Origin: a virus
DNA length: 64,000 bases
Virus record (IMG/VR): IMGVR_UViG_3300035698_035275
Span: 1-64,000 of that record
Strand: one strand, 5' to 3'
A program made the position numbers and the translations under genes. Positions within the stretch are counted from its first letter, which is position 1. Each line of letters opens with the position of its first letter. The notes under the pieces were generated by a model. It made no database searches, was not told the DNA's origin, and was given only the letters and a program-made list of their open reading frames with translations. Of this stretch, positions 10,919 to 64,000 are shown piece by piece.

Positions 10919-11851
10919 ATGGATAACAAAACTCTGCTCGCAAAGGCGCAGATTAAGCTGAGCGATTTAGTCACAGACGGTGGCTATCTTAGACCGAAAC
11001 ACGCGGCTAGCTTCATCCTCAGCCTGATTGACTCTGCTGAACTCATGAAAATGTGCTACGTGACCGGAATGGCATCCCCAAAGATGTATGTCGATAAGAT
11101 CGTGTTCGGAGATCGCATTCTGCATGGCGTGAGTGGCGATGGTACGGCACTGGCCGAGGCGCAGCGTAGCAAACCGACGACCGACAACATCGAGCTGGAT
11201 TCACAGATGTTCAAAGCGGAAATACGCATACCGCAGGACGTTATCGAGGACAACATCCAGGGTGACGGGCTGAAGACGACCGTCATGGGCATGATTAAAG
11301 AGCGTGTGGCACTGGACATGGATGAGATTATCGCAAACGGCGATACAACGTCCAGCGATCCGGACCTGGCAATGCTTGACGGAATCCGCAAGCAGGCATC
11401 ATCCAACGTGGTTGACGTTGGTGGGGCGTCCACCACAAAGGCCGTTCTGCACAACATCATCAAGACCATGCCGAAGAAATATCGCCGTAACCGTCGCGAT
11501 GTTGTGTTCTTGATGGCCGATCAATGCGAGTTGGCGTACAGAAACTCCCTGGCCGAGCGTGCGACAGGTGGCGGCGATAAATGGCTTGCAGAAGATATAC
11601 CCGTCTTCTACAGCGGGTCCCCAATTCGAACCGTCCCGGTACTCCCGGAGAATCTCGGGGTTGGCAGCAACTACGCCGATATGCTGTATCTCAATCCCAA
11701 AAACATCAGAGTAGGTATCTATAAAAAGGTACAGCTCCGCACGGATGAGGACATTAGCGCTGGGGTTCTCGTTATTGTCGCACGTGTCCGCTTCGATGTG
11801 AAATACACTGAAGAGCAGGCAGTGACTAAGGCCCATTCCATCGCTGTCTAG
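10919..11851 (+). CDS. major capsid protein (HK97-fold)
   Basis: A 310-residue protein with a very strong AAAGGAGG ribosome site before ATG 10919. Recognisable capsid features are the E-L-D-S-Q-M-F-K-A-E-I-R-I-P spine, the L-D-G-I-R-K-Q region, the P-K-K-Y-R-R-N segment with F-L-M-A-D, and the C-terminal beta strands with V-R-F-D-V. Length suits the family. Codon choice is strongly biased away from ATA, as expected for the most abundant virion protein. It is expected to form the icosahedral shell after cleavage or maturation by the upstream protease. Confidence 0.85.
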   Translation: MDNKTLLAKAQIKLSDLVTDGGYLRPKHAASFILSLIDSAELMKMCYVTGMASPKMYVDKIVFGDRILHGVSGDGTALAEAQRSKPTTDNIELDSQMFKAEIRIPQDVIEDNIQGDGLKTTVMGMIKERVALDMDEIIANGDTTSSDPDLAMLDGIRKQASSNVVDVGGASTTKAVLHNIIKTMPKKYRRNRRDVVFLMADQCELAYRNSLAERATGGGDKWLAEDIPVFYSGSPIRTVPVLPENLGVGSNYADMLYLNPKNIRVGIYKKVQLRTDEDISAGVLVIVARVRFDVKYTEEQAVTKAHSIAV

Positions 11852-15625: not shown

Positions 15626-15985
15626 ATGGCACCTATGAACGAAAAGCAGATGATGTCACTGGCAATGAAGCTGGTATTTGTTGAGGGTAGTATGACCGCA
15701 ATAAATAATATAAAGAAGGCCCCCAGTGACATCATAAAGGCGGTGGTGAATAAACACGTACCTAACGCAAGCGATGAGTCTGTGGCACTGGTGCAGGCGT
15801 CTATAATCGGCATGTGTGACTCGTACCTTGCTAGCACGCTTCAAGAGGCAAAAAAGATGGCCGACGGGTATAAAGAAGTCATTACCGATGACACATCTAT
15901 GGAGCGCACACTAAAAAGAATATCTGAAATGCTGGGCGGTAAAAGCGATGATATCTCTGTACAGGAATCAAATAGTAGGGGCTGA
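15626..15985 (+). CDS. hypothetical helical protein (119 aa)
   Basis: ATG 15626 lies 1 nt after the previous stop. The protein is mostly helical with many Met residues in its first 20 positions. Its 3' end overlaps the next gene by 38 nt. No family is recognised; its place just before the connector genes suggests a structural or assembly role. Confidence 0.65.
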   Translation: MAPMNEKQMMSLAMKLVFVEGSMTAINNIKKAPSDIIKAVVNKHVPNASDESVALVQASIIGMCDSYLASTLQEAKKMADGYKEVITDDTSMERTLKRISEMLGGKSDDISVQESNSRG

Positions 15986-16958
15986 TGATCCGGCTCTTGT
16001 TTGGTATTTCACCGATGGATCTACCGGTCTGCTGGCTGACCCCGATAGCATGGACTATCGGATAGTAGTACTAAACGATCCATTAGAGCAGGTCCTACCA
16101 GAGGTTGAGATGTGGCAGGAACTGGATATTGACGCTAATAAGCTCAGTATCGGCAGGTATGTGCTCCCGTGGTCGGTGCCGAGCGATGCAGACATTGACT
16201 ATGCGTACAGGGTGTATGTTAGGTGGGTGATGGGGGGAGTCACTAAGACAGCGTGGCAGGATATTGGGGTTAATGACATGGACTACGGGCTTAGCAATGA
16301 ATGCTGTTGCCTGATGTGTGACTTAACGCTATCCGGGATAGACCTTTCGAGCATACGTAATAAGATGAGGGCAGCTTCTCTAATACAACGGATGTCCCAG
16401 TACATTAGAAACATTACCGATAGATCGTTTCACCCCGAGTATAAGACCATCAAGCTGGACTCTATCAGCAACGACACGTTGATGTTGAGGGAGCCAATAA
16501 TTGGGATAGAAAGCATGGTATTGCCGGAGCTGCTCGATTTCGAGGTTGACGCTGGATCAATGGCGATATACTCAAGACACCTAACTGACAATCTCAAGGA
16601 TCCGGATGATAGAGACGTCCCTATGATTTACATGGAGAATGGCATACGTGGCGGGTCACAGAATATCGAACTTACCGGGGTATTTGGTTACACAGACCCG
16701 GACGGCACCTGCTTCGGGAAGGTCCCAGACTTAATAAGGGATGCGTGCGTGCAGTTAGTATGGAGGGATATGCCGGGGCTAATGGATCAGTCCGAGCAAA
16801 ACGATAGGAGAAGGGAAGGGTTTATTACGTCCGAGAAGACCAGTACACAGAGCTATACTATGGATTCGTCGGTGGTGCCATCTGGTGTCACCGGAATAGG
16901 GGATGTAGATACAATACTGAGTATGTATTGCGCTCCATTCTCAGTGAGTGTAGCATGA
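15948..16958 (+). CDS. head-tail connector/adaptor-like protein
   Basis: A 336-residue product. ATG 15948 overlaps the preceding gene by 38 nt. The first 110 residues form a beta-rich, Ig-like section. The rest resembles gp15/gp6-type adaptors that bind the portal ring: I-R-N-K-M-R-A-A-S-L-I-Q-R-M-S-Q-Y-I near residue 140, a beta domain, and a C-terminal helix with D-L-I-R-D-A-C-V-Q-L-V. Adaptors are usually about 100-150 residues, so the extra N-terminal domain is unusual. The call rests on pattern and gene order and is moderate. Confidence 0.6.
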   Translation: MISLYRNQIVGADDPALVWYFTDGSTGLLADPDSMDYRIVVLNDPLEQVLPEVEMWQELDIDANKLSIGRYVLPWSVPSDADIDYAYRVYVRWVMGGVTKTAWQDIGVNDMDYGLSNECCCLMCDLTLSGIDLSSIRNKMRAASLIQRMSQYIRNITDRSFHPEYKTIKLDSISNDTLMLREPIIGIESMVLPELLDFEVDAGSMAIYSRHLTDNLKDPDDRDVPMIYMENGIRGGSQNIELTGVFGYTDPDGTCFGKVPDLIRDACVQLVWRDMPGLMDQSEQNDRRREGFITSEKTSTQSYTMDSSVVPSGVTGIGDVDTILSMYCAPFSVSVA

Positions 16959-19524: not shown

Positions 19525-21786
19525 ATGGGTCAATTGTTATCGTCAAAATGGGTCGTGAAAAGGCAACCGCCGAGAGTCACGAATATACCATCAGAGGCAA
19601 CGGCTGTCACTGCTAACATAGGAGTCACCGAAAGAGGGCCAATCGGAATCGATACCCTGGTGACATCATGGGAGGAGTTCTACAGGAAATTCGGCGGAAT
19701 AACGGCAAATGCGGACGCGTCGATGCAGGCGTACTTGTTCTTCGAGGAGGGCGGTCAGATGTTGCATGTCACCAGGACATGCCACTATTCGAATATTGAC
19801 TCAGCGGCCACATACGCGGCCACGAAAGGCACCGCTAATCTCAGCACAGGCGCTGTATCTCCATCGACCGGAAGTATTGACACTACGGAGTCGGCACCGT
19901 TCAACCTGTCCAATGGTGACACGCTGCTGATCGAAGCAATCAATGATGGGGTGTCGTCCGGTGATTTGACCACCACCTTTACAGGTACGGCGGCACAGGT
20001 CGAGTCTGCTGCAGAAATGTACGCACTAGCTGACGGGCAGACGTTAACCCTAAAGGTGGACAAGGGACCGGAGCAGTCCTTATCGTTCTTGACGGCTGAA
20101 TTCGTTGACATAACAACTGCTACCGCTAAGGAGGTGGCAGCGGTTATCGGTGCAAAGGCTACCGGTATCAGGGTGACATCAGACAGCAGCAAGGTGCAAG
20201 TAATAAGCGATGTTGCTGGTTCGTCCTCGTATGTGGAAATAACCGGTGGTACTGCAAATGCCGTACTGGGGTTCTCCACTAGTGAACAGGCTGGCACCGG
20301 AAATGTAGAAGACCTGGCGAATGTCACGGTGGACGAGCTATACGGCTTGTTAACAACTGCATTAGGCGTGAATGCCGATGTATCGAAGACTGTCACGGTT
20401 GTGACAATAGCCAGCATCGGCACCGGGGCTGACTCATCCATACAGGTTAAGGCGGTATCGACGGCTGATACTAAGATTGGCTTGACTAATGCTGTCTATT
20501 CCGGGTCTGACGGCGGCACAGCCGTAACACTGCGGATAGACGGCAAGACAGAAGGAAGCTACACGGACGATGTACAAATAGCTGTAGAGGCAGCATCATC
20601 CGGCGTAAGCTCCGAGTTCAACCTATCGATCATAGTAGGCGGATATGTTGAAGAGTCATTCCCCAATCTGACTATGGACTCAGACAACGACAGATATATC
20701 GAAACGGTTATCAACCATACGGCAATCGGGTCCGACTATATAGCCGGTGTTGACATGAGCGCGGCTGGGTCGGTGCTGCAACGTAGACCCACCAACGGAT
20801 CATCGTTTGGTCCTCTCACTGGTGGCGGTGACGGTCTGTCCAGTCTGTCGGCCACTGACTTTATCGGGTCATCGGTAGCCAGGAATGGAATGCATTCACT
20901 GGAGCGCGTGAACTCGGTAGACCTGCTGATTATTCCGAATTACAGCAGCGTCTCTGCAGTGGCTAACGCTATGATACAGTATTGCGAGATAGATAAAAGC
21001 AGCATGATGTTCTGCATTATCGATCCGCCTGCTAGCAAGACAGCCGTAGAAATGGTCACATGGCTGGAGGACGAAGCGCAGATTTATGGCGAGTCAGAAC
21101 AGGCCGCTACATACTGGCCTCGCATACGAGTCAGCAACAAGTGGGAGAGCGTGTATGGCTCCGATGACACCGTGGTGGTTTCCCCGTCTGGTGCCATAGC
21201 GGGCCTATATGCCAGAAATGACGCATCGGGGCCTGGTGGCATCTACAAGACGCCTGCCGGTTCAGACGCACAGGGACAGCTTTATACCGCTGTCGGATTT
21301 GAAGGCGATGAGGACGAGCCGCACGAAGTGGAAGATGAGAAAAAGCGTGATATTATCTTCCCGAAACGCATAAATCCGATACGGCGTGATAGCGGTCCTA
21401 TATACCTGGACGGTGCCAGATGCTTGAAGGGTGATGGCCCGTTCCCGTTTGTGCAGCAGTCCAGAGGCACTATAAAAATATCCAGGGAGATGACGAACGG
21501 CCTTGACTGGGTGCGCCACAAGAGAAATTCCAAGTCGTTAAGGAATAGAGTACAACGCGCGGCCATCAAATATCTGAATAGTCAGACTGCCGTCAACGCA
21601 TTCGCATCAAAAGACCCTGATAAGGCGTACTTCTTGGACGTTAGCGAGCAATTAAACACCCCGTCAGTGCAGGCGTCTGGTCAATTGCTGGTCAGAGTAG
21701 GTCTGGCATACGAAGACCCCATTGAATGGGGCGTACTGATGATTACCAAGGACACCCGGAAGCTCGAAGACGAGCTGGGATTATAA
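19525..21786 (+). CDS. contractile tail sheath protein
   Basis: A 753-residue protein with a GGGAGG site before ATG 19525. The N-terminus (R-V-T-N-I-P then V-T-E-R-G-P-I-G, F-Y-R-K-F-G-G) and the C-terminal region (I-N-P-I-R, R-G-T-I-K-I-S-R, F-A-S-K-D-P-D-K-A-Y, V-R-V-G-L-A-Y) match the contractile tail sheath family. The middle (about residues 110-400) carries repeated Ser/Thr-rich beta domains inserted in the core fold, probably exposed on the sheath surface. It surrounds the tube and contracts during injection. Confidence 0.92.
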   Translation: MGQLLSSKWVVKRQPPRVTNIPSEATAVTANIGVTERGPIGIDTLVTSWEEFYRKFGGITANADASMQAYLFFEEGGQMLHVTRTCHYSNIDSAATYAATKGTANLSTGAVSPSTGSIDTTESAPFNLSNGDTLLIEAINDGVSSGDLTTTFTGTAAQVESAAEMYALADGQTLTLKVDKGPEQSLSFLTAEFVDITTATAKEVAAVIGAKATGIRVTSDSSKVQVISDVAGSSSYVEITGGTANAVLGFSTSEQAGTGNVEDLANVTVDELYGLLTTALGVNADVSKTVTVVTIASIGTGADSSIQVKAVSTADTKIGLTNAVYSGSDGGTAVTLRIDGKTEGSYTDDVQIAVEAASSGVSSEFNLSIIVGGYVEESFPNLTMDSDNDRYIETVINHTAIGSDYIAGVDMSAAGSVLQRRPTNGSSFGPLTGGGDGLSSLSATDFIGSSVARNGMHSLERVNSVDLLIIPNYSSVSAVANAMIQYCEIDKSSMMFCIIDPPASKTAVEMVTWLEDEAQIYGESEQAATYWPRIRVSNKWESVYGSDDTVVVSPSGAIAGLYARNDASGPGGIYKTPAGSDAQGQLYTAVGFEGDEDEPHEVEDEKKRDIIFPKRINPIRRDSGPIYLDGARCLKGDGPFPFVQQSRGTIKISREMTNGLDWVRHKRNSKSLRNRVQRAAIKYLNSQTAVNAFASKDPDKAYFLDVSEQLNTPSVQASGQLLVRVGLAYEDPIEWGVLMITKDTRKLEDELGL

Positions 21787-21806: not shown

Positions 21807-22289
21807 ATGGCCAGCAAATTCAGTCACAAATATTTATTTCGTATTGAGATAGACGGGGTGGAAAGGGCGGTGTTTGAAACCTGCTCGGATCTAGCCGGAG
21901 AGGTGGAGGACGTCGTATTCTCGCCAGCGGGATCACTAAGAGATCACAGTGAGCCTGGAAAGGTGAAGTTCGACGATATAACCCTTACAGCGGGCAAAAC
22001 CAACAGCTTAGAGCTGTACAACCTGTGGGAGGAGACGGTAAAAGCCGACGCTGGCATGGATGATGACACTATCGAAGTTGGTGGTGGAACCGGCAGTGAC
22101 GACACCGAGATGCATTTTGATATCGTCGAGCTGAACAGATCGGGATCGGAGAAGGCTAGGAATCGAGTAGTCACCGACTACGTTAAAAGATACGTGCATG
22201 GCTCATGGGATTCCAAGGCCAATGAGGTAGTCGTACAGAGCATTACATTCAAAACCCAGCAGTGGAAACCAGTATCCAAATCGGCCTAA
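21807..22289 (+). CDS. tail tube protein (T4 gp19-like)
   Basis: A 160-residue protein; ATG 21807 follows AAAGGA. The K-Y-L-F-R-I-E-I-D-G-V start, L-A-G-E-V-E-D-V, the W-E-E-T-V-K loop and the closing beta strands with V-V-Q-S-I-T-F fit the gp19-like tube family. It forms stacked hexamers inside the sheath. Adjacent placement after the sheath gene is the usual order. Confidence 0.88.
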   Translation: MASKFSHKYLFRIEIDGVERAVFETCSDLAGEVEDVVFSPAGSLRDHSEPGKVKFDDITLTAGKTNSLELYNLWEETVKADAGMDDDTIEVGGGTGSDDTEMHFDIVELNRSGSEKARNRVVTDYVKRYVHGSWDSKANEVVVQSITFKTQQWKPVSKSA

Positions 22290-29493: not shown

Positions 29494-29928
29494 ATGGCAG
29501 TAGCTAGCGGAATAAAAGATAGATACAGGACTCTTTCACCGTCTATGTACAGGGACGGCAGCGACGATTTCAAGGTAGTATCCGGAGAAGATGCTATAAG
29601 TGAGTCGATAGAGACAATATTAACCACCAGATCAACTAGGCCGGGGTCAGTCGGTGAGCTTCCATGGAGGCCGTCATTTGGTAGCAGAATGCAGGAGTTA
29701 AGACATAAGAGCCTGCCAGACCAGGTACTTATAGAACTGGCTAGGCAGGACGCCACCGAGTCCATCGGCATCTGGGAAAAGAGGGCAATAGTGACGGGGG
29801 TTGACATACAAATAACTAGAAATAACGGTGGAGAAGGTAGGTGCTTCCAAATGAGTGTATTATGGGTTCCTACCGGGGTTAACTCCGGCAGCGTGCAGAG
29901 ACGTACAACCGTATTAGTGGGGGGTTGA
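29494..29928 (+). CDS. baseplate wedge protein, gp25-like
   Basis: A 144-residue product. ATG 29494 lies 7 nt after the previous stop. It contains E-S-I-E-T-I-L-T-T-R then G-E-L-P-W-R-P-S-F-G-S, the gp25/W wedge signature, followed by Q-V-L-I-E-L-A-R-Q-D. It joins baseplate wedges to the sheath end and helps start sheath assembly. Confidence 0.88.
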   Translation: MAVASGIKDRYRTLSPSMYRDGSDDFKVVSGEDAISESIETILTTRSTRPGSVGELPWRPSFGSRMQELRHKSLPDQVLIELARQDATESIGIWEKRAIVTGVDIQITRNNGGEGRCFQMSVLWVPTGVNSGSVQRRTTVLVGG

Positions 29929-29932
29929 TAAC

Positions 29933-31459
29933 ATGATATTAAACCCGGCAAAAATGCCAGCCAATCTTGATTATACGGACAAGGATTTCGACTCTATAAG
30001 AAGGAGACTGATTAATCTCACTGGGTCAGTATTTCCCGAGTGGGAAATCTCAGCCCTTGGTGACTGGTCTGCGATACTGTTAGAAATGAATGCGTTCGTA
30101 CTAGACATCGTATGTGGGTATTTGGACTTCTCCACGATGGAGGGCAGACTAGCCACAACCACACAAAGGATAGAGGCCATACGCATACTGGAGCTTATAG
30201 GCTATGAGATGGCTGGGCAGACTTCCGCCACCGTTGATGTGCAGGTATCTATTACTAGTGGTCTGTTACAGGCATCAGTAAGGATACCGGCTGGCACAAA
30301 AGTGAGAAATAAGGACACCTCAAATAGGATAGAATATCAGACCCTGGCTGACGTCGTATTCACTGCTGGAGGAGACGCCATCAAAATGGTGTCGGTCGAG
30401 AATTCATCCGTTCAGCAGGAGGTGTTTACCCCAGATGGCACACCTGAACAGACATACATGCTATCTAAATACCCGTATTTGGACGAGGGCGATGATTCAG
30501 TTATAGGCATAAATATTGAGGGCAATTGGGCAATAAAGGACTCTCTGCTTAACTCCGGCGCTAACGACAGACACGTAATGATAAGGGTAGACCAATATGA
30601 CAGAGCTACCCTGTATTTCGGAGATGGCATTAATGGTGCCGTGCCGGTTTCCCCGATAACGCTGGCTTATAAGTACGGCGGTGGAGCCACAGGCAGAGTA
30701 TCGGCTGGGTCCCTTATCGTAATAGACGGGGTGTTTAAGGATGTCAACGGGAATCTAGTGACATTTGGTGTCACCAACCCGGCGGGGTCTACTGGTGGGG
30801 ATAACAGGGAAACAGTGAATAGCGCAAAGCAGCTAGGGCCTGCCAGCCTGAGAGCAACAGAAAGGACCGTCACGACCGAAGACTTTGCAATAAGGGCGAT
30901 TCAAGGCGGCGCTGATAGAGCTATGATGCTTACTAGTGACGAAGATTTATCCGTCCCGGAAAATGTAGGCCAATTATATATGGTGTCGTCGACAAGCGAT
31001 ACCATATCATCTGCCATAAAGTTAGCAATAACGGCTTTGTACACAGTGGACTATCCGAAAATAACTACATTCTCGGTGCAGCTAATAGACGCTCCAACAA
31101 AGGCCGTTAACGTGGGGGCTACCGTACACTTTAACGATGGATATGACAAAACGACGGTTAGGAATAGCATACTGGAAAATCTGGGGGTGTACATGAGTCC
31201 AATAAACGCGGACGGCACGTCTAATAGTAATGTTGACTTCGGGTACAATATGAGGAATGATGAGGGGCTACACCCTGTATTAGCGTTCTCAGATATTTAC
31301 AACATAGTAAGGGATACTATTGGTGTAAGAAAGATAAGCCCGAATGTTGGTGACTTTACATTAAACGACGTACAAGCGGATGTTGTGCTGCTGAATAACC
31401 AATTCCCGGTATTAGGGACTGTGGTAATAGTAGATGGAGATACTGGGTCTACCGTATGA
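29933..31459 (+). CDS. baseplate J-like protein
   Basis: A 508-residue product; ATG 29933. The N-terminal region (Y-T-D-K-D-F-D-S-I, G-D-W-S-A-I-L-L-E-M, T-T-T-Q-R-I-E-A-I-R-I), the D-R-A-T-L-Y-F-G-D-G-I-N-G-A-V-P turn near residue 220 and the T-E-D-F-A-I-R-A-I segment match the baseplate J/gp47 family. It builds the wedge with gp25 and the gpI-type protein. Its 3' end lies 13 nt before the next gene. Confidence 0.88.
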   Translation: MILNPAKMPANLDYTDKDFDSIRRRLINLTGSVFPEWEISALGDWSAILLEMNAFVLDIVCGYLDFSTMEGRLATTTQRIEAIRILELIGYEMAGQTSATVDVQVSITSGLLQASVRIPAGTKVRNKDTSNRIEYQTLADVVFTAGGDAIKMVSVENSSVQQEVFTPDGTPEQTYMLSKYPYLDEGDDSVIGINIEGNWAIKDSLLNSGANDRHVMIRVDQYDRATLYFGDGINGAVPVSPITLAYKYGGGATGRVSAGSLIVIDGVFKDVNGNLVTFGVTNPAGSTGGDNRETVNSAKQLGPASLRATERTVTTEDFAIRAIQGGADRAMMLTSDEDLSVPENVGQLYMVSSTSDTISSAIKLAITALYTVDYPKITTFSVQLIDAPTKAVNVGATVHFNDGYDKTTVRNSILENLGVYMSPINADGTSNSNVDFGYNMRNDEGLHPVLAFSDIYNIVRDTIGVRKISPNVGDFTLNDVQADVVLLNNQFPVLGTVVIVDGDTGSTV

Positions 31460-53610: not shown

Positions 53611-56097
53611 ATGTCCTGTGACGGCTGTCCATTACGCGGTGTAAGCATAAATACAAAAGTGCCTGGGGGTGGTAGTAATAGCCCATCAATAATGCTGGTA
53701 GGTGAGGCACCAGGGAGAGAAGAGGACGAATTAAATCAAGTGTTTGTGGGTCCGGTCGGGGTGTTCCTAAGAGAATGCATGGCCAGCATGGAGGTAGACG
53801 CATCCGATATCTACTTCACTAATATTGTAAAGTGCAGGCCACCGAATAACAAGCTGGTAGGCAAATATAAAAAGGCCGTAAAGCACTGTAAGGAGTACCT
53901 GCTAGAGGAAATAGAAAGGCTGTCCCCGACGGTTATAGTGCCTCTCGGTGACACAGCAATGGAAGCATTACTAGGAATACGCGGTATTTGGAAGAACCAC
54001 GGCAGGGTAATAGATAGAGACGGAATCCCTGTAGTACCCACTTTCCACCCGTCATACGTCAAATTCTACAATAAGAGTGACCAGGTATTTGACTTATACT
54101 CCCAGGACCTATATAATGCTGCGGTAATAGCAGAGGGCGGCACGCCAGAAATTATAATACCAGACGTTGACTATATAACAGAGGGTGTTACTAATGACGA
54201 TATATTGCTGCTGCTCAAGGCGGATATACTGTCTATAGACATCGAGACTAACACAGTCAGCACGCACTATTGCACCATATCGGCGGATGCTGACAGGGGA
54301 CCACGAATACTGTCGATATCGTTTTCATGGGATGAGGGCGTCGCAATGTTTGTCCCATGGGATGAGGAGCACATGCCAGCTATAAAGGCAGTGTTGGAGT
54401 CGGACATCCCAAAGGTGGCGCATAACTGGAAATTTGAATACTCGTGGCTAGTGTTAAAAGAGGGTATTGCCGTTAGCAACATATACATGGATACCATGCT
54501 AGCACATTACCTGGTGGACGAAAACAGCAGGCACGGGTTGAAGGAGCTAGCGTACACGTACACCGATATTGGTGGGTATGACGTGGAGATGGATGTGTAC
54601 ATAGGTGATCACCCGGAGTGTGACCCAAAGAAGAGCGGGTCATATGCGAATATACCGCTTAGGCTACTATCTAAGTACAATTGTGGAGACGTGGATGCGA
54701 CCCTGCGAATAGCGCGTAAGCTTAGCAAGGTAATGGATGACAAACTGTGGTCACTACATAATAACATACTGGTGCCAGCGGCTGAGATGCTGTCTCGGGC
54801 GGAGCTTAGCGGGTTTGAGTTAGATATTGATATGTGGGACTGCCTGAACAACGAGTATACGGCTAAGGTTAGTGAAGCTATTGATGACGCTATGTCTATT
54901 GACGAGGTTAGGCACTTCTGGAAGTATTATAAGGAGTCCACCAAGGCCAAGGGAGACAGGGTTAATCTTAGGTCTTCCAAGCAGGTATCGCTCTTAATGA
55001 CGGAGTACTTCAGATTTCCAGTGATAAGGGAAACCGACTCCGGCAATCCGTCATGGGATTCCGAGGTAATAGACGAGCTGCTAAGGATGGATAGGTACAA
55101 GGGGAATAAATTCCTGCCGATACTAAAAAGAGTAAGAAGCATTTTGCAGATACAAAGCAACTGTCTAGGGACGACGCCTAAGCAAATAGCGGAGTCGGTT
55201 GATGCCAGGGTGCATACGAATTTTATCTTGCATTTTGTAGTCACTGGTCGCCTGTCGTCTAGAAACCCAAATATGCAGGCTATTCCTAGAGAGTCTACTG
55301 TTGGCCCGTTGAACGTGCCGTCAATAAAGACAATGTATATTTCCAGGTACGACGGCGGGAACATTGTACAGGCCGACTATAGCCAGATAGAGCTTAGGAT
55401 ATTGGCTATGCTGTCTGGTGATAAGGCGTTCAGGCGCATATTTGAAGAGGGGCTGGACCCGCATGCTAGTGTTGGGGTTAATATATACAAAATGCTAGAG
55501 GGGAAGGACATAGACATAGCGGACCTGCCGAAAGAGTGGAGAGATAAAGGGAAGACAACCAACTTTGCAATAGTGTATGGGCAGACACCAGAGGGGATGG
55601 CTAAAAAGCTAGGCTGTACAGACGCGGAAGCTAAGAAGATGATGTCTGCCACCATGTCTACATACTCGGGAATAGACGACCTGCTTAAGGGGTATAGGAA
55701 TGATGTCATAAAGAATGGGTATGTTGAATCCCCATTTGGCAGGAGGAGGAGACTGCCGATAATCGAGGGTATGAGTAGGTCAGATAAGAATGCGGCACTG
55801 AGAGAGGCCGGTAATCACCCTGTACAAAGTGCCGCGTCGGACATGACCCTATACTCAGCGGTACTACTGGATGCCGAAATCAGAAGACTGGGTATGAAGT
55901 CGCACATAATATGCCTTGTGCACGACTCGATAATACTGGATACTCCCAGTAATGAGACTGAAAAGGTGTGTAAGATGGTAGGGGATATTATGAGGTCATT
56001 ACACAAGCATTTCGACTGGATAGACGGCAGTTTCCCGATAGAGGTAGACGTTGAGTATGGCCCGTCATGGGGCGAGCTTAACGAGTACGAGGCATGA
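53611..56097 (+). CDS. family A DNA polymerase with N-terminal family 4 uracil-DNA glycosylase domain
   Basis: An 828-residue replicative polymerase. ATG 53611 follows GAGG. Residues 1-190 form a family 4 uracil-DNA glycosylase: Cys3/Cys6, G-E-A-P-G-R-E-E-D, C-R-P-P-N-N-K with a fourth Cys in K-H-C-K-E-Y, and F-H-P-S-Y. The four Cys would hold an Fe-S cluster. Residues about 205-390 are a 3'-5' exonuclease (D-I-E-T, H-N-W-K-F-E-Y, Y-N-C-G-D-V-D). The rest is the polymerase: Q-A-D-Y-S-Q-I-E-L-R (A), T-N-F-A-I-V-Y-G (B), V-H-D-S-I (C, HDS rather than HDE). UDG-like fusions occur in SPO1-type polymerases. With a PurZ-like gene nearby it is a DpoZ candidate. Confidence 0.92.
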   Translation: MSCDGCPLRGVSINTKVPGGGSNSPSIMLVGEAPGREEDELNQVFVGPVGVFLRECMASMEVDASDIYFTNIVKCRPPNNKLVGKYKKAVKHCKEYLLEEIERLSPTVIVPLGDTAMEALLGIRGIWKNHGRVIDRDGIPVVPTFHPSYVKFYNKSDQVFDLYSQDLYNAAVIAEGGTPEIIIPDVDYITEGVTNDDILLLLKADILSIDIETNTVSTHYCTISADADRGPRILSISFSWDEGVAMFVPWDEEHMPAIKAVLESDIPKVAHNWKFEYSWLVLKEGIAVSNIYMDTMLAHYLVDENSRHGLKELAYTYTDIGGYDVEMDVYIGDHPECDPKKSGSYANIPLRLLSKYNCGDVDATLRIARKLSKVMDDKLWSLHNNILVPAAEMLSRAELSGFELDIDMWDCLNNEYTAKVSEAIDDAMSIDEVRHFWKYYKESTKAKGDRVNLRSSKQVSLLMTEYFRFPVIRETDSGNPSWDSEVIDELLRMDRYKGNKFLPILKRVRSILQIQSNCLGTTPKQIAESVDARVHTNFILHFVVTGRLSSRNPNMQAIPRESTVGPLNVPSIKTMYISRYDGGNIVQADYSQIELRILAMLSGDKAFRRIFEEGLDPHASVGVNIYKMLEGKDIDIADLPKEWRDKGKTTNFAIVYGQTPEGMAKKLGCTDAEAKKMMSATMSTYSGIDDLLKGYRNDVIKNGYVESPFGRRRRLPIIEGMSRSDKNAALREAGNHPVQSAASDMTLYSAVLLDAEIRRLGMKSHIICLVHDSIILDTPSNETEKVCKMVGDIMRSLHKHFDWIDGSFPIEVDVEYGPSWGELNEYEA

Positions 56098-56913: not shown

Positions 56914-58080
56914 ATGGCTATAAAGATTAGACGCAGTGTCCTGGTTGATCAGGCAAAGCAAGCGCAGGAGTCCGGGGGCGGGAAGTATATGAAGTTTCAG
57001 GACGGAAAGACATATGTGCGCGTGCTCCCGTTCCTAGTAGAGAAGGGCATGTATGATGTCGCACTCAAATTTGGAACACACAACAACATACCGGGTGTGC
57101 GGGGTCCCGTCACGTGTAGACGCCTTTTCCCGAAGAAGTCCGCTAAGGGCAAGAGTCTGGAATGCCCTATCTGTATGGCAGTGGAGATGCTGGAGTTAGC
57201 CGGTGAGTCTGAGAAGGCTAACAAGCTCCGTGCCAATCCGAATCGGTGGGCAATGTACATGTACGATGTGTCGAACAAGCAGGGTCCGAAAACGGCAACC
57301 GTCGGATCGCAGATAGCCACTCCTATTCTGAAATACGGGGTGGACGATGAAGAGTACGGAGATGTATTTGATCCCAAGGTAGGGCGTGATTTCATCGTTG
57401 AGAAGACCGGCACCGGTATGGATACTGAGTACCAGGTACGTATTCGCGATGCAAGCAGATGCAAACCGGTGCCTGCGGCTGTCATGGCTAAGGTCAACTC
57501 GCTATTTGACGAGCTAAGACCGAAGTCATACGCGGAATTGCTCGAGATGATGGGTCCTTTGGGTCTGAACATTCCAAAAACCGAGTCGGCAATAGCAGCC
57601 AACAACGACGACGAGGAAGAGGACGACGTACCATTCGACAGCAGCGATGATGAGGACGACGACGAGGAAGAGGACGAAGACATCGATGAGGATGACGACG
57701 ACGAAGAGGAAGAGGACGAAGACATCGATGAGGATGACGAGGATGACGAGGATGACGAGGATGACGAGGATGACGAGGACGAGGAAATCGACTATGAGTC
57801 CTTAGGGTTCATCAACAGTGACGACCTGGAGGATACAGTGGGAAAGGTTGATGCATCCAATCCCAAAGTCAAGAAGCTGTTCGATAAGTGGGGGGCGGAA
57901 GACGGCACTAAGAGCGGCCTGCTGGTCATTCTGAAGAAGCAGAAGGTCTTTGCCGTGCAGAAACCCGGCAAGGCTGGCGGTGGTGGTGCTCTGGACAGGC
58001 TGAAGAAGAAGATGGAGAGCGCTAGCGACTCGAAAGCGAAGGTAAAAGCAAAAGCGAAGAAAACCGGCAGGAAGAAATAA
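56914..58080 (+). CDS. gp32-like single-stranded DNA-binding protein
   Basis: A 388-residue product. ATG 56914 has GGAGG 9 nt upstream. A H56-x11-C68-x15-C84-x-x-C87 zinc site, with V-R-V-L-P-F before it and R-W-A-M-Y-M-Y-D-V after it, matches T4 gp32-type proteins. It coats single-stranded DNA in replication and recombination. Residues about 232-292 are an almost unbroken Asp/Glu run from 9-nt DNA repeats. After it comes a small folded segment and a Lys-rich C-terminus. Most SSBs end in the acidic tail, so the basic end is unusual. Confidence 0.82.
   Translation: MAIKIRRSVLVDQAKQAQESGGGKYMKFQDGKTYVRVLPFLVEKGMYDVALKFGTHNNIPGVRGPVTCRRLFPKKSAKGKSLECPICMAVEMLELAGESEKANKLRANPNRWAMYMYDVSNKQGPKTATVGSQIATPILKYGVDDEEYGDVFDPKVGRDFIVEKTGTGMDTEYQVRIRDASRCKPVPAAVMAKVNSLFDELRPKSYAELLEMMGPLGLNIPKTESAIAANNDDEEEDDVPFDSSDDEDDDEEEDEDIDEDDDDEEEEDEDIDEDDEDDEDDEDDEDDEDEEIDYESLGFINSDDLEDTVGKVDASNPKVKKLFDKWGAEDGTKSGLLVILKKQKVFAVQKPGKAGGGGALDRLKKKMESASDSKAKVKAKAKKTGRKK
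57601..57789 (+). repeat. acidic-codon low-complexity repeat in SSB gene
   Basis: A GAY/GAR-rich tract coding for Asp/Glu. It includes 9-nt units (GAGGATGAC) between about 57735 and 57780 and two longer related blocks. Slippage could change its length. Confidence 0.85.
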
Positions 58081-58086
58081 CTAGCC

Positions 58087-59220
58087 ATGCCCAAATTCGG
58101 TAATGTAGACCTGATAATAGGCGGTCAGTACGGATCAGAGGGAAAAGGTAAACTCGCCGGGTATGTATCCCGGCGGGTTCCTTATTCCGTCGCCGTGTGC
58201 AACTTCACATCTCAAGCCGGTCATACATTTGTGTATGACGAAGGCAGAAAGGTTATTACGCAACAACTACCAACAGCTATAGTGAGTAGTTGTGAGAATA
58301 TAATGATAGGGCCTGGTGCTATCATAGATGAAGACGTACTGGAGAGGGAGATAAACGAGTACGGACTAACAGAAGCCAGACTTACTATAGACAGCAACGC
58401 TATAGTGATAGACCAGAGGCACAAAGACGCTGAGAGGGCCAACGCCATAAGGGTAGCATCAACGATGAAGGGCAATGGAGCTGCAGCAGCGGAGAAGTGT
58501 CTCAGATTCCAGGGCTTGAGGACTGCTGGCGATGACTCGTTCAGATTTAAGCAGTACGTTGGTGATGTGAGGTCGGCACTACACAATACGCACGTGATGG
58601 GTGGTGACATACTGCTGGAGGGGTCGCAAGGGTTCGACCTGGATGTTAATCTTGGATTTTATCCATTTGTCACCAGCAGGGGGACCACTAGCGCGGCAGA
58701 GCTTAGCAGGTGCGGCCTTTCGCCACAAAGCGTAAGGAATGTATTCGGCGCATATCGGACGTTCCCAATACGCGTTGGGAACTTGAAGGATGAAAACGGT
58801 GTGGAGGTGGGTAATTCCGGGCCTGTATACGATGACCAGACGGAGATGACGTGGGATGAGCTGTCTAGCCAATATGGGGGTGCTGATAAGCTGCTGGAGA
58901 GGACCACAGTGACAGGCAGGGTCAGAAGGGTGTTTACGTTCTCCCGGACCCAATTTGCCAGATCGATAGTGTCGAACGGGGTAAACTGCATATTTATAAA
59001 TTACGCTAACTACATCGACGGGGCCTTGTACGGTGCCAGTGGTGATAGTGACGATTCCCCATCGCGTAATGCCAAGCTTCTTGACTGGTTGCAGCAGAAC
59101 ATCGTTCCCGTCCTTTCGAAGGTGCACGATATAGGTGAGAGGGTCATTATACCACTTCTTATTGGTACTGGCCCCGCCGACTCTGACATGTTGTCGATTA
59201 ACATGATTGTGGGGTCCTAA
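58087..59220 (+). CDS. purZ: PurZ-like adenylosuccinate-synthetase homologue (2-aminoadenine pathway)
   Basis: A 377-residue product with the adenylosuccinate synthetase fold: G-G-Q-Y-G-S17-E-G-K-G-K (P-loop), A-G-H46-T, S-T-M-K-G-N-G near residue 127, E178-G-S-Q-G, F-V-T-S-R and T-V-T-G-R-V-R-R-V-F-T-F. In cellular PurA the position of Ser17 is the catalytic Asp (G-D-E-G-K-G-K). Its loss is the known mark of phage PurZ, which joins dGMP and Asp to form the precursor of 2-aminoadenine (Z). Phage PurZ proteins are about 340-380 residues against about 430 for PurA, and this one fits. His46 is kept. The gene lies between SSB and a kinase-dUTPase fusion. A cellular-type PurA function is less likely but not excluded. 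Confidence 0.85.
   Translation: MPKFGNVDLIIGGQYGSEGKGKLAGYVSRRVPYSVAVCNFTSQAGHTFVYDEGRKVITQQLPTAIVSSCENIMIGPGAIIDEDVLEREINEYGLTEARLTIDSNAIVIDQRHKDAERANAIRVASTMKGNGAAAAEKCLRFQGLRTAGDDSFRFKQYVGDVRSALHNTHVMGGDILLEGSQGFDLDVNLGFYPFVTSRGTTSAAELSRCGLSPQSVRNVFGAYRTFPIRVGNLKDENGVEVGNSGPVYDDQTEMTWDELSSQYGGADKLLERTTVTGRVRRVFTFSRTQFARSIVSNGVNCIFINYANYIDGALYGASGDSDDSPSRNAKLLDWLQQNIVPVLSKVHDIGERVIIPLLIGTGPADSDMLSINMIVGS
58153..58177 (+). other. GC-rich hairpin in 5' end of purZ-like gene
   Basis: CGCCGGG (58155-58161) and CCCGGCG (58169-58175) pair perfectly around a 7-nt loop, and two flanking pairs (one G-U) extend the stem to 9 bp. It falls at codons 23-31 and might slow translation or attenuate transcription. 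Confidence 0.5.
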
Positions 59221-59221
59221 T

Positions 59222-60211
59222 ATGCGAGGGTTCGAAGTAAAATTCGTGTCCGGCTATACAGGGTCTGGCAAGACGGCCTATACTGATAGGTTGCACCTGG
59301 ATACTGGGTGGCCGGTACTGCACATAGGTGACTCGTTAAGGGAGTTTGGTATATCGTCCAAATCCATATCCGAGATGCCGGATGCGCACGCTCCCGCGTC
59401 GTTGGACAAGATGGTTAATCAAACGGTGGCTAATTTCATTGCTGAAGCGTTAGGACCTGAAGGAGGGGGCGGCGTAATAATAGATGGATTTCCACGTAAG
59501 CCGTCGCAGGTTCACGAGGCATATGAGATGGTGTGTGGGCTGGTGCGTTACGCACCAGGAGAAATACGCCTAAGATTTGTATTTGTGACGGCACCTATTG
59601 ATACAAGAATATCCAGGGTGCTGAGTAGCAGGAGCGAGGCCAGAAGAGAGTTATCTGTAATGAAGATAGAATCGGAGTCTGCCGATATGGATAACTCTAT
59701 AAAAGTGGCAAAGGAGATCGAGAGAGGTAAGCCAGCGTTAGCAATGAGCATTATGGTTACAGAGACGGGGATAAAAGAGATATACCCAGGAGTGATGGTG
59801 GCAGATGTACTGGTGGTTGGAGACGGGTACAGAATGCCCGTGCATGCTGGGGACGTTGGGATAGACTTAAGCTCAAACGGCAGGGTTGAAATACTCCCTG
59901 GGGAGTTCAGCAATGTAGAAACCGGGGTAAGCGTTAAGATAGATGATAGATGCTGGGGAAGAGTGACCGGCAGATCATCGGCTGTATGGGGTAAGGGAAT
60001 AATGGTGATGGAGGGAGTCATTGACCCAGGGTATACCGGTGAGCTGTTTATGCTCGTGTATAACCCTGGGAAAAAGGCGGTGGTGGTGGATAGGGGAGAC
60101 AGAATAGCCCAACTAATTCTAATACCAAGGGTTGACTATAGCGTATTGAGGGTAGACAGTCTGCCAAAGACGAGTAGAGGCAATAAAGGATTCGGCTCAA
60201 CCGGTAAATGA
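59222..60211 (+). CDS. adenylate-kinase-like domain fused to dUTPase
   Basis: A 329-residue product. ATG 59222 has GGGG about 8 nt upstream; an in-frame TTG at 59207 lies inside purZ. The N-terminal domain (1 to about 195) has Walker A G-Y-T-G-S-G-K-T, a G-D-S-L-R-E segment, and I-I-D-G-F-P-R-K-P-S-Q, which fits the adenylate kinase signature. The C-terminal domain (from about 205) has all five dUTPase motifs: A-G-D-V-G-I-D-L, G-R-S-S-A, G-V-I-D-P-G-Y-T-G-E-L, G-D-R-I-A-Q-L and R-G-N-K-G-F-G-S-T-G. It would convert dUTP to dUMP and phosphorylate a nucleoside monophosphate, possibly dZMP or dAMP. Such a fusion is unusual. Confidence 0.85.
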   Translation: MRGFEVKFVSGYTGSGKTAYTDRLHLDTGWPVLHIGDSLREFGISSKSISEMPDAHAPASLDKMVNQTVANFIAEALGPEGGGGVIIDGFPRKPSQVHEAYEMVCGLVRYAPGEIRLRFVFVTAPIDTRISRVLSSRSEARRELSVMKIESESADMDNSIKVAKEIERGKPALAMSIMVTETGIKEIYPGVMVADVLVVGDGYRMPVHAGDVGIDLSSNGRVEILPGEFSNVETGVSVKIDDRCWGRVTGRSSAVWGKGIMVMEGVIDPGYTGELFMLVYNPGKKAVVVDRGDRIAQLILIPRVDYSVLRVDSLPKTSRGNKGFGSTGK

Positions 60212-60229: not shown

Positions 60230-62413
60230 ATGAATAACAGAAGCAAGTTGGTCCTGTCACCAGATAGGAAAACAGCGATATTTGGGGAGAGGTACGCCAA
60301 GAAGGGTGAAGATTCGGTGGAGTCTGTCATGCACAGAGTAGCGATGGCAGTAGCTACCAGTTATGAGAGCAACCACGGCGGCAAGCTGGAGGATACTGCC
60401 GATATAGTGGATGAGTGGGTAGGGTATATGTCGAGGTTCGAGTTTGTTCCTGGCGGTCGTATTCTGTCTAATGCAGGCGTTGACAAGAATCTGCTGAACT
60501 GCTTTGTAGTGCCGGTGGATGACAGCATAGGGGGCATATTCGACTCGCTGAAAAGAAGCATGATGATACAAGGGGTTGGTGGTGGTGTTGGGTTCAACTT
60601 CGGCGGAATAAGGCCGAAGGGGTATCCGACATCCGGCCTTGGTGTGGCCTCTGGCCCGTGCAGCTTTATAGATGTATTTGATAAGGCCAGTGATACAATA
60701 AGCTCTACCTCTGACAGGAAAGCCGCTAATATGGGGATACTGCCAGTGTGGCACCCAGACATACGGGAGTTTATCAGATCAAAGGTAGGGAACGACGGCA
60801 ATACTGGTAGATGGATAAAATTCAATATATCAGTGGCTGTGAATAACAAGTTTATCAATGCTGTCAAGTCGGGGTCCGGATTTGACTTGATGTGGGATGG
60901 AAAGGTAGTAGACACAATCGACGCGGCGGGATTGTGGAAGGAGATGGTGGATAGTCAATGGCTGTGTGGTGACCCTGGTTTGTGGAATTATGATACAGCC
61001 AACGAAATGAATAATACCGGGTACTTCCAGGAGCTGATAGGTACAAATCCGTGTGGTGAGATATCCCTGCCTGCTTGGGGTTCGTGCTGTCTGGGTTCAA
61101 TAAATCTCAGCAAATTCGTTGTCGATGGGTCGGTTGACATACCAGCCCTTGAGAGGGTCGCTGGTTCAGCGGTGAAATTCCTAGACTCGGTAATAACAGA
61201 AAATGAATACCTGTTTGATGAGATGGAAGCGGAGGCCAAGCTATCCAGGAGAATAGGGCTTGGAGTGATGGGCGTAGCTCACGCGTTAATGAAGATGGGT
61301 ATTAGATACGGCAGTGAGGAGGCCAGATTGGTTGTTGGGTCGATGATGACCACAATAAGAGACGCAGCATACGAGACATCTACAATGCTGGCAACATGTA
61401 TGGGGTCGTTCACTGGGTATGACGAGAAGAAATATACGTCCAAAAAGTCAGGGTATACTAAGTCGCTCCCTAACGGGGTAATGGACAAGATAAAAGCACG
61501 CGGGATAAGAAATTCAACACTGCTCACGGTTGCCCCGACTGGAACGACATCGGTTGTAGCAGGTTCATCGTCTGGTATTGAGCCTGTATACTCGTTGAAA
61601 TTCGTACAGAAGAGGTTCAAGGACGGGTCGTGGCACTCTGAGAATGTAATGGACCCTATATACGAGGAGTGGCTTAATAAAAACCCCGAAGGTGCTGCCG
61701 TTCCTGACTATTTTGTGACGTCGAAGAACATACATCCGGATGATCACCTGAAGATGCAATTGGCTGTGCAGGCGGTGGTGGATAACAGCATAAGCAAGAC
61801 AATAAATATGCCAAGTCACGCGACTAGGCAGGAAGTATCAAAAGTGCTGCTGGACGCCATGACGGGCGGCGCTAAGGGCTGTACTATATACAGGGACGGC
61901 TCTTTGTCTCACCAACCCCTGAGTGACACGCCTAGTACAAGAAACAAGGGTGTAAAGATTAGGCGTGGGCTGACGTATGAAATAAGTACGCCACAGGGGA
62001 AGGCATATGTGACCATAAACGACTTTGAGCAGGGTGGTGGTCCGATGCAGGTGTTCATAAGGGCTGATAAGCCAGGGTCGGATTCCTACGCATATTGCAA
62101 TGCAATGGGTAGGCTGATATCGATAGGGCTGCAAGACGGCACCGACCCGAAGAGAATAGCAAACACTCTAATGGGTATAAACTCATCCGGTGTGACATGG
62201 GAATTTATGCCAGACAGCCAGGATAAGCCGGTCACGATAACTTCAGTGCCAGACGCGGTAGCAAAGCTTATGCTATCCTACTGTGGGGAGCCGGTAGTAA
62301 TAATGGATAATGCGTCGTCGAAGGCTGTTATGTGCAGCAACTGCGGCGCTCCGATGGAAATGATAGAGGGTTGTCTAACGTGCAGGAGCTGCGGAAATGC
62401 TCTGTGCCAATAA
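60230..62413 (+). CDS. nrdJ: class II (adenosylcobalamin-type) ribonucleotide reductase
   Basis: A 727-residue product. ATG 60230 follows AGGGG. F-V-P-G-G-R-I-L-S-N-A-G, L-L-N-C-F-V, G-G-G-V-G-F-N-F, N-P-C-G-E-I-S-L and A-P-T-G-T-T-S are the reductase motifs. The C-terminus has C-S-N-C-G-A-P then C-L-T-C-R-S-C-G and a final Cys, a zinc ribbon typical of class II NrdJ. It makes deoxynucleotides, including dGDP needed for PurZ substrate. No small subunit is present or needed. Confidence 0.92.
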   Translation: MNNRSKLVLSPDRKTAIFGERYAKKGEDSVESVMHRVAMAVATSYESNHGGKLEDTADIVDEWVGYMSRFEFVPGGRILSNAGVDKNLLNCFVVPVDDSIGGIFDSLKRSMMIQGVGGGVGFNFGGIRPKGYPTSGLGVASGPCSFIDVFDKASDTISSTSDRKAANMGILPVWHPDIREFIRSKVGNDGNTGRWIKFNISVAVNNKFINAVKSGSGFDLMWDGKVVDTIDAAGLWKEMVDSQWLCGDPGLWNYDTANEMNNTGYFQELIGTNPCGEISLPAWGSCCLGSINLSKFVVDGSVDIPALERVAGSAVKFLDSVITENEYLFDEMEAEAKLSRRIGLGVMGVAHALMKMGIRYGSEEARLVVGSMMTTIRDAAYETSTMLATCMGSFTGYDEKKYTSKKSGYTKSLPNGVMDKIKARGIRNSTLLTVAPTGTTSVVAGSSSGIEPVYSLKFVQKRFKDGSWHSENVMDPIYEEWLNKNPEGAAVPDYFVTSKNIHPDDHLKMQLAVQAVVDNSISKTINMPSHATRQEVSKVLLDAMTGGAKGCTIYRDGSLSHQPLSDTPSTRNKGVKIRRGLTYEISTPQGKAYVTINDFEQGGGPMQVFIRADKPGSDSYAYCNAMGRLISIGLQDGTDPKRIANTLMGINSSGVTWEFMPDSQDKPVTITSVPDAVAKLMLSYCGEPVVIMDNASSKAVMCSNCGAPMEMIEGCLTCRSCGNALCQ

Positions 62414-62431: not shown

Positions 62432-62752
62432 GTGTATATTTCTAACAGCAGGATTGTGTCTATCGTTAGTGCCATAATCACGGTTTCTGATGATGGGGGT
62501 GCAGAAATAGACGTCAGTAATTGCATTCTTGAGGTAGGTGTTTCGATGCTGGTCTTTGGGTGCTTGAGCAACTCCGTAGTGTATATTATAGAAGGTGCCT
62601 ATGTCGATCATCTAGTGGAAGAGCTGCACGGTCTGAGCGACGGGGTAATAAACAGCGAGTCGGTAAGAGTGCGTAAAGCTTCGGGCGTGCTGGACATAGC
62701 CGGGTTATCAAATTCTCTAATGGCTGTTGAGGTGTTCCTTGGCATCGAATAA
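62432..62752 (+). CDS. hypothetical protein between nrdJ and helicase
   Basis: A 106-residue product from GTG 62432, with GGTGG about 6 nt upstream (GTG 62423 is also possible). It is rich in Val, Ile and Ser, with alternating hydrophobic residues that suggest a beta-sheet sandwich (I-S-N-S-R-I-V-S-I-V). It overlaps the next gene by 14 nt. No family is recognised. Confidence 0.6.
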   Translation: MYISNSRIVSIVSAIITVSDDGGAEIDVSNCILEVGVSMLVFGCLSNSVVYIIEGAYVDHLVEELHGLSDGVINSESVRVRKASGVLDIAGLSNSLMAVEVFLGIE

Positions 62753-64000
62753 ATTAAAATTCGACTTTGACGATGAGTTTCAACTGTCGGTGGTGTCACT
62801 GCTGCTGAGAGATTATAGATTTGCTAGGAGAGCTTTATCTGTCCTAGACCCTGACTATTTCACTGACGACGACTTATCTGCTATATCCGGAGCTGCTATC
62901 GGGTATGTTAGGAAATACGGAGTATGTCCATCATCCCCTAGTGACTTTTTGCTGTACATGGCATCACTAGGGGATATGGATGGCCGTATGCCAGAATTCG
63001 AGGACTCTATTCCATTACTGTACGAGGGGCGCATGCCGTCCGGGATAGTGGTGGATACAGTGGTGGAGTGGTGTAGGAGAGTTAGGGTGGAGAGTGCGTT
63101 ATCCTCTGCCATGCTGGAGATGTCGGCAAACAGTGGTGATGTTGACTACTCCTCCATTAGAGGAGGAATAATAGACGCTATAGACTCTGGTGGGATATTA
63201 GATCCAGGGGTTGACTTGTTCAAGGATGCTGAGGATATACTAAATAGGCCGAGGAAGCCTGGAGCGTGTAGGACCGGAATAAATTCTCTAGATAAAGTGC
63301 TAGGTGGTGGCCTCGGGGCAGGGGAGATGGGCCTGATTTCTGCGCCGTCCGGTCGTGGAAAGTCCACTCTCGCTATCAATTTTGCATGTGGCTCACTATA
63401 TATGGGTAATGACATCTACTACTATACACTGGAAATGCCAAAGCACCAGGCCAGCATGTATTTTATACAGTGCTTAACAGGAATGACGAAGGAGGGAATA
63501 TATAAGGCTGAGAATGGGAAGAACAGGGCCTTAAAGAAGCTCCTGAGAATAGCTAATACATATAAGTCAAATGCGTACATAAAGGAGTTTCAGGAGCGTA
63601 AGACTACATACGATGACATAAGAACGGACATTCTAAGGAGAATGGACGAAACCGGCAGAGCGCCAGCTCTAATAGTCGTGGACTCCCCTTATTTATTAAA
63701 ACCGGTAAGGCACAGGGCCAGAGGGGATGAGGAAATAGAAGATAACGTTCTTGGGGTAAGGGCAATAGCTAAGGAGCTTGGAATAGCAGTGTGGGGTATG
63801 GGGCAGGGAAACCGCAGCTCTGAGGATCCGGACACCGAGACTATGACTAATTACCACTTGGCAATGGCATATTCTCAAGCATTCGGTCTTGACGTATCAT
63901 TGACTATTAATAGGACATCTGGGGAAATAGACAGAGGAGAGGCAAGGATATACATTGCTAAAAACAGAGAAGATATGTCGGCAATGTCGGTAAGGACCAA
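62739..64000 (+). CDS. DnaB-like replicative helicase (3' end beyond window)
   Basis: The frame is open from TTG 62739 to the window end (420 codons). TTG is chosen because GAGGTG lies 5 nt upstream and no ATG is available before the conserved part. G-I-N-S-L-D-K-V-L-G-G-G-L leads to Walker A A202-P-S-G-R-G-K208-S-T. Y-T-L-E-M-P, V-V-D-S-P (Walker B) and G-Q-G-N-R-S follow, as in DnaB/gp41-type hexameric helicases. It would unwind DNA ahead of the polymerase. The N-terminal 180 residues form the helical domain. Confidence 0.85.
   Translation, partial: MASNKLKFDFDDEFQLSVVSLLLRDYRFARRALSVLDPDYFTDDDLSAISGAAIGYVRKYGVCPSSPSDFLLYMASLGDMDGRMPEFEDSIPLLYEGRMPSGIVVDTVVEWCRRVRVESALSSAMLEMSANSGDVDYSSIRGGIIDAIDSGGILDPGVDLFKDAEDILNRPRKPGACRTGINSLDKVLGGGLGAGEMGLISAPSGRGKSTLAINFACGSLYMGNDIYYYTLEMPKHQASMYFIQCLTGMTKEGIYKAENGKNRALKKLLRIANTYKSNAYIKEFQERKTTYDDIRTDILRRMDETGRAPALIVVDSPYLLKPVRHRARGDEEIEDNVLGVRAIAKELGIAVWGMGQGNRSSEDPDTETMTNYHLAMAYSQAFGLDVSLTINRTSGEIDRGEARIYIAKNREDMSAMSVRT
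62928..62979 (+). other. long inverted repeat inside helicase gene
   Basis: ATCCCCTAGTGA (62933-62944) pairs perfectly with TCACTAGGGGAT (62964-62975). Flanking CCAT/ATGG add 4 bp after a 1-nt bulge. The loop is 19 nt. It is an unusually strong structure for coding DNA and could be an RNA or DNA element, or coincidental. Confidence 0.5.

Follow-up and report, generated by a model that had tools for sequence, protein, structure and literature searches.

In a 64,000-base stretch of viral DNA (hereafter the window, bases 1-64000 of a linear 66,842-base IMG/VR virus record), a gene for a PurZ-type synthetase is followed, one base further on, by a gene that fuses an adenylate-kinase-like domain to a dUTPase domain. 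On balance we consider this locus to be a third type of supply module for 2-aminoadenine (Z) nucleotides, with reactions that we infer. The fuller proposal, which we hold in even balance, is that a third Z-DNA module was independently assembled in uncultivated phages, wherein PurZ is combined with a dedicated dZMP kinase and a dNTP pyrophosphohydrolase that stems from one or the other of two unrelated dUTPase folds, together supplying a UDG-PolA polymerase. In the window phage the predicted kinase and hydrolase of the module are in one chain. PurZ and Z genomes are already known, and the sets described in the literature that we searched are PurZ with DatZ, MazZ and DpoZ, and PurZ0 with DutZ, DmtZ and DUF5664. 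The kinase module is provisionally regarded as undescribed in that literature, outside which most subscription journals lay; the word "kinase" is absent from the main text of a 2026 survey of NCBI viruses.

The features of the window on which the argument draws are:

58087..59220, + strand: purZ, PurZ-type synthetase, 377 aa, ATG start (ORF list, profiles, tree, predicted fold)
58135-58137, 58213-58215 and 58222-58224, + strand: purZ codons for Ser17, Gln43 (CAA) and His46, in that order
59222..60211, + strand: kinase-dUTPase fusion gene (ORF and domain matches)
59237..59695, + strand: its N-terminal adenylate-kinase-fold domain (P-loop, DGFPRxxxQ), a proposed dZMP kinase
59840..60208, + strand: its C-terminal trimeric-type dUTPase domain, DutZ-like, a proposed dGTP/dATP/dUTP pyrophosphohydrolase
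53611..56097, + strand: DNA polymerase with family-4 UDG, 3'-5' exonuclease and PolA regions, not DpoZ (profile matches)
56914..58080, + strand: single-strand DNA binding protein, directly upstream of purZ (ORF, PHROG)
60230..62413, + strand: class II (B12-dependent) ribonucleotide reductase NrdJ (profile matches)
62727..64000, + strand: DnaB-like replicative helicase, continuing past the window end and complete in locus L004
43953..44513, - strand: dCTP deaminase-like protein
19525..21786, + strand: tail sheath protein (contractile tail)
21807-22289: tail tube
29494..31459, + strand: baseplate wedge subunits, two genes

A second IMG/VR record encodes a protein identical to the 58087-59220 product together with an identical downstream gene. 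No large terminase was recognized among the profiled genes; hence the contig is probably incomplete, and the absence of a given gene from it carries limited weight. The single-strand DNA binding protein (56914-58080) contains a very long acidic stretch rich in Asp and Glu. Past the end of the window (L004:15026-15787 and 15797-16843, at about 65025-66842 of the contig), the replication genes are followed by two ORFs whose translations alone suggest a PLP-enzyme-like and a DNA methyltransferase-like product, the latter with a TCPPY motif.

There is little doubt that the 58087-59220 product belongs to the PurZ family, as a first-pass annotation made from the sequence had proposed: profile scores, phylogeny, the retained PurZ TTVT loop and the predicted fold all agree. 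The plus-strand frame with its ATG and 377 residues, the P-loop GGQYGSEGKGK, Ser17 and the retained His46 are present as that annotation described them. The product matches PF00709 (E=5e-37) and PHROG phrog_1211 (E=2e-60), and its best specific NCBIfam model is PurZ (NF038379), whose curated cut-off of 300, set by NCBI for confident naming, is not reached by the observed 223 bits. The annotation had named a tree of PurA, PurZ0 and phage PurZ as one of its checks, and the product belongs to the clade of phage PurZ both in a larger tree (SH-aLRT 99), built with PurA, PurZ0, known PurZ and loci from IMG/VR and from genomes, and in a smaller set (99.9). An AlphaFold2 model (pLDDT 91) finds its best match in phiVC8 DgsS/PurZ and its next in S-2L PurZ. 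It is highly improbable that the protein is instead a PurA-type enzyme that acts on IMP and boosts adenine nucleotides; the two share a superfamily and archaeal PurA is similarly short, but Ser17 replaces the catalytic Asp present in the E. coli and P. horikoshii PurA, the purA model TIGR00184 scores only 131 bits, and the product lies apart from the PurA branch in the trees.

Two of the markers on which the first-pass annotation had relied turned out to be less telling. The length of 377 aa does lie within the 343-390 aa of the PurZ proteins compared here (PurZ0 and MaF61 excluded), but the P. horikoshii PurA chain has 340 aa, so length is not diagnostic and was discarded as a PurZ marker. 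Likewise, Ser does occupy the position at which PurA has Asp, but Ser alone is not diagnostic because Ser-type homologues exist on chromosomes, and it was no longer taken as proof by itself. These chromosomal homologues, namely L136:5446-7056 from Pseudomonas sp. TH43 and many among L106-L185, are adenylosuccinate synthetase homologues on bacterial and archaeal genome contigs; their lengths are near 350 aa or near 540 aa, and in the tree they lie outside the clade of phage PurZ; the L136 protein owes its additional N-terminal part to a fused AAA_18 kinase-like domain, which precedes the synthetase. Ser-type PurZ homologues also occur on the very large viral contigs L041, L100, L085 and L092 (371, 395, 312 and 263 kb), some of which have tail sheath matches. 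In the 168-kb Flavobacterium phage MaF61 the Ser-type PurZ homologue (L012:4980-6323) is divergent, has 447 aa and is encoded next to the terminase and an RNR gene. Within the phage clade the window PurZ has a long branch; placements with the DatZ-linked and with the kinase-linked subclade are both compatible with tree tests that reject neither (AU p 0.62, 0.76), and its assignment to one or the other was dropped.

We are fairly confident in predicting that the window PurZ is a dGMP-dependent synthetase. Among the substrate residues described for S-2L PurZ (PMC8342488), it retains Y15 G16 S17, A44 G45 H46 T47, T126, R140, Q181, T196, R229 V230, T273 T274 V275 T276, R280, N305, N308 and G362 P363. 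The changes from S-2L to the window protein are N49 to Q43, Y203 to F194, C204 to V195 and G130 to A124. N308 agrees with phiVC8 at this position, a match suggesting that the energy donor is ATP/dATP and not GTP. The first-pass annotation's claim that the other synthetase motifs are kept was nearly right, His46 being retained; it did not mention residue 43, which is Gln where the homologues have Asn. Asn is found at this position in all 93 other viral and all 80 genomic homologues, as well as in the two PurAs, making Gln43 unique to the window protein among 176 aligned sequences, and the equivalent Asn of S-2L PurZ lines the base pocket. This Gln may be tolerated, or else it may have retuned the enzyme.

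A synthetase retuned by Gln43, or one using GMP and not dGMP, would act on another purine nucleotide and yield a different modified nucleotide or only partial Z. The uniqueness of Gln43, the chromosomal Ser-type homologues and the missing DpoZ would fit such an enzyme; we nevertheless judge it decidedly unlikely, given that most of the other mapped substrate residues, V230 and the TTVT loop included, fit PurZ, that Gln is a conservative change and that the protein lies within the phage PurZ clade.

The dGMP-dependent PurZ that we favor is encoded immediately ahead of the fusion gene, whose probable start is the ATG at 59222, one base past the purZ stop (TAA 59218-59220); the ORF list gives its start as TTG 59207. 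Domain matches place an AAA_17/adenylate-kinase-like region first and a dUTPase second. The kinase domain displays the features of the adenylate kinase fold, with a P-loop, DGFPRxxxQ, catalytic arginines and an AK-like predicted structure (pLDDT 87.5), and its PDB matches are adenylate kinases, albeit distant ones (TM-scores 0.5-0.66). Across the aligned kinase family there is no variation in the P-loop, in the arginine of DGFPR or in the Gln that follows it by four residues. In adenylate kinases this Gln contacts the adenine (a 6-amino purine) of AMP, and its conservation suggests that the substrate is likewise a 6-amino purine nucleotide, either dZMP or dAMP, and not dGMP. A tblastn search with the kinase against named phages gave no matches. 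We regard a role for the kinase in the Z pathway as a reasonably probable prediction, and give a roughly even chance to dZMP as its main substrate.

The best phage matches of the dUTPase domain are the dUTPases of PurZ0 phages. In two of these phages, Ghobes and Wayne, DutZ hydrolyzes dATP and dGTP besides dUTP (PMC12884076). In the dUTPase tree the window domain falls, with moderate support (81/87), in a 22-row group with dUTPases of PurZ phages and four of the five DutZ proteins, that of Hiyaa lying outside. Canonical dUTPases are mostly apart from this group (91/89), with Campylobacter CP21 as an exception. The window domain shares an RSS[TA] motif with its group, whereas most canonical dUTPases have RSG[LM]. 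In the PurZ0 phage Hiyaa (a Streptomyces phage) a PurB-like lyase is encoded near purZ0 (L018:11483-12856), and is possibly a phage-borne dSMP lyase.

When IMG/VR was scanned with three PurZ query sequences, 80 loci were kept of 233 relatives, and purpose-built profiles revealed two main arrangements among them: purZ with DatZ/MazZ and DpoZ, and UDG-PolA...purZ-kinase-dUTPase-DnaB. Relatives of the window locus keep the order purZ-kinase-(dUTPase)-DnaB. Within the flanks of the 80 loci the kinase alone was found in 37, DatZ alone in 22, both in 3 and neither in 18. After clustering at 85% identity the mutual exclusion of kinase and DatZ gives p=5e-4, a statistic that ignores common descent; the exclusion follows clades and may thus reflect few independent events. 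In six other loci the fusion partner of the kinase is instead a dUTPase_2 domain, all-alpha and unrelated, whose acidic motif residues are conserved. That dUTPase domains of two unrelated folds are each found joined to this kinase in the same position points to the need for a dNTP-to-dNMP step.

An alignment of 15 diverse kinases was too divergent for scanning, and closer subsets were therefore used as queries for the converse search. Scans from two kinase subfamilies found purZ directly upstream in 6/6 and 11/11 contigs. A looser query recovered 12 contigs, of which 5 were purZ-adjacent and 3 had a Ser-type PurZ elsewhere; no PurZ was found on three shorter ones (38, 12 and 4.5 kb) or on a large one of 162.9 kb. 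Overall, purZ accompanies the kinase in 25/29 converse matches, 21 of which repeat loci of the first set. Such recovery is expected, the seed kinases having come from PurZ loci, and the informative part of the converse scans is that few close kinase relatives occur outside PurZ-bearing contigs.

These patterns bear on the possibility that PurZ makes Z and that the kinase-dUTPase protein merely provides ordinary pool upkeep (dUMP for dTTP and a general dNMP kinase), adjoining purZ only through the clustering of replication genes. The dUTPase fold, the UDG domain of the polymerase and the dCTP deaminase would fit uracil exclusion and dTTP supply, and in phage BpsS-140 and some large contigs the kinase (and dUTPase) is distant from purZ, near primase/helicase genes. 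We consider this explanation unlikely, if still a serious contender: the kinase stands immediately downstream of purZ in 36/80 PurZ loci and the converse matches repeat the association, while the kinase/DatZ exclusion and the swap between two dUTPase folds also speak against it.

In the Z supply module that we prefer, purZ and, after one base, the kinase-dUTPase fusion are flanked by UDG-PolA upstream and by the class II RNR and DnaB helicase downstream. Its reactions would proceed as follows: 1) The dUTPase-fold domain would cleave dUTP and would also act on dGTP, yielding the dGMP that PurZ uses, and on dATP, whose conversion to dAMP would reduce the competitor. 2) PurZ would join dGMP and aspartate, with ATP or dATP, to form dSMP. 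3) Host PurB would convert dSMP to dZMP. 4) The kinase domain would phosphorylate dZMP to dZDP. 5) Host nucleoside diphosphate kinase (Ndk) would produce dZTP from dZDP, and the phage UDG-PolA would insert dZTP opposite T. With both activities on a single chain, kinase and pyrophosphohydrolase would form a futile cycle unless their specificities differ; the hydrolase is therefore predicted to spare dZTP, and the kinase to ignore dAMP and dGMP.

The window polymerase scores 57.7 bits with the DpoZ model, against a cut-off of 500, and groups with the polymerases of kinase-module phages (SH-aLRT 98), apart from both DpoZ groups. No YfbR-like or dATP/dGTP-PPHyd match, as sought for DatZ and MazZ, was found in the probably incomplete contig, and the profile scan likewise returned none. 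According to PMC8599892 and PMC8065100, the PrimPol of S-2L shows no discrimination; by analogy, pool control alone may be enough for Z incorporation in the window phage, as in S-2L. Even with no DpoZ, DatZ or MazZ found and with Gln43 departing from the base-pocket consensus, we think it likely that Z is present in the phage DNA, in part or in full.

The first-pass annotation had also suggested that a contractile tail would extend the Z group. The tail is borne out by the sheath, tube and baseplate wedge genes, but its novelty is not: the sheath profile matches 8/34 other records with PurZ, and a sheath is annotated in Burkholderia phage Bm1, which has PurZ and DatZ. The fused kinase-dUTPase beside purZ, absent from that annotation, is more novel than the tail. 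The virion structural protein at 10919-11851 (major capsid type) is closest to siphovirus-type capsid proteins of Rhodobacter, Vibrio and Stenotrophomonas phages, despite the sheath of the window phage.

In the characterized Z phages dZMP is converted to dZTP by host enzymes, and the pool is set by DatZ/MazZ or DutZ/DmtZ. If real, a dZMP kinase encoded by the phage would be a new step, and a single synthetase would have been the core of three or more separate assemblies of the Z pathway. In that event purZ and one fusion gene would also offer a compact set for Z-DNA production in laboratory bacteria. The locus also allows a test of whether, after a shift in the pool, Z genomes can be replicated by a polymerase that is not related to DpoZ.

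The window locus shares different parts with several named systems. Its synthetase shares the fold, Ser for Asp, the TTVT loop and most of the substrate residues with phiVC8 and S-2L PurZ (DgsS), to which it is 34-35% identical across some 80% of the protein; unlike the datZ-mazZ-purZ Z-cluster of those phages, the window locus has Gln43, no DatZ or MazZ found, UDG-PolA in place of DpoZ or PrimPol, and a kinase-dUTPase fusion after purZ. The polymerase has a full-length match (28.7% identity) in SPO1 DNA polymerase gp31, likewise UDG-like plus PolA, from a phage in which hydroxymethyluracil replaces T; there was no SPO1 PurZ among the matches listed. Burkholderia phage Bm1 (PP183292) resembles the window phage in combining PurZ with genes annotated as encoding tail sheath and baseplate wedge proteins, but its cluster is of the DatZ/MazZ type and its polymerase phiVC8-like. 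The best named-phage PurZ match, at 38.6% over 97%, is that of Bacillus phage vB_BpsS-140 (MH884512), which has neighboring adk and dut genes; in contrast to the window, this pair is unfused and about 9 kb from purZ, and the phage has no sheath match. Finally, the PurZ0 phages, exemplified by Wayne, share with the window a dUTPase-fold enzyme near purZ, which in Wayne is also the C-terminal half of a fusion. The window PurZ lies outside the PurZ0 clade and the polymerase is not a Wayne-like DpoZ, and the N-terminal half of the fusion, which in Wayne is the nucleoside deoxyribosyltransferase DmtZ, is in the window a predicted kinase.
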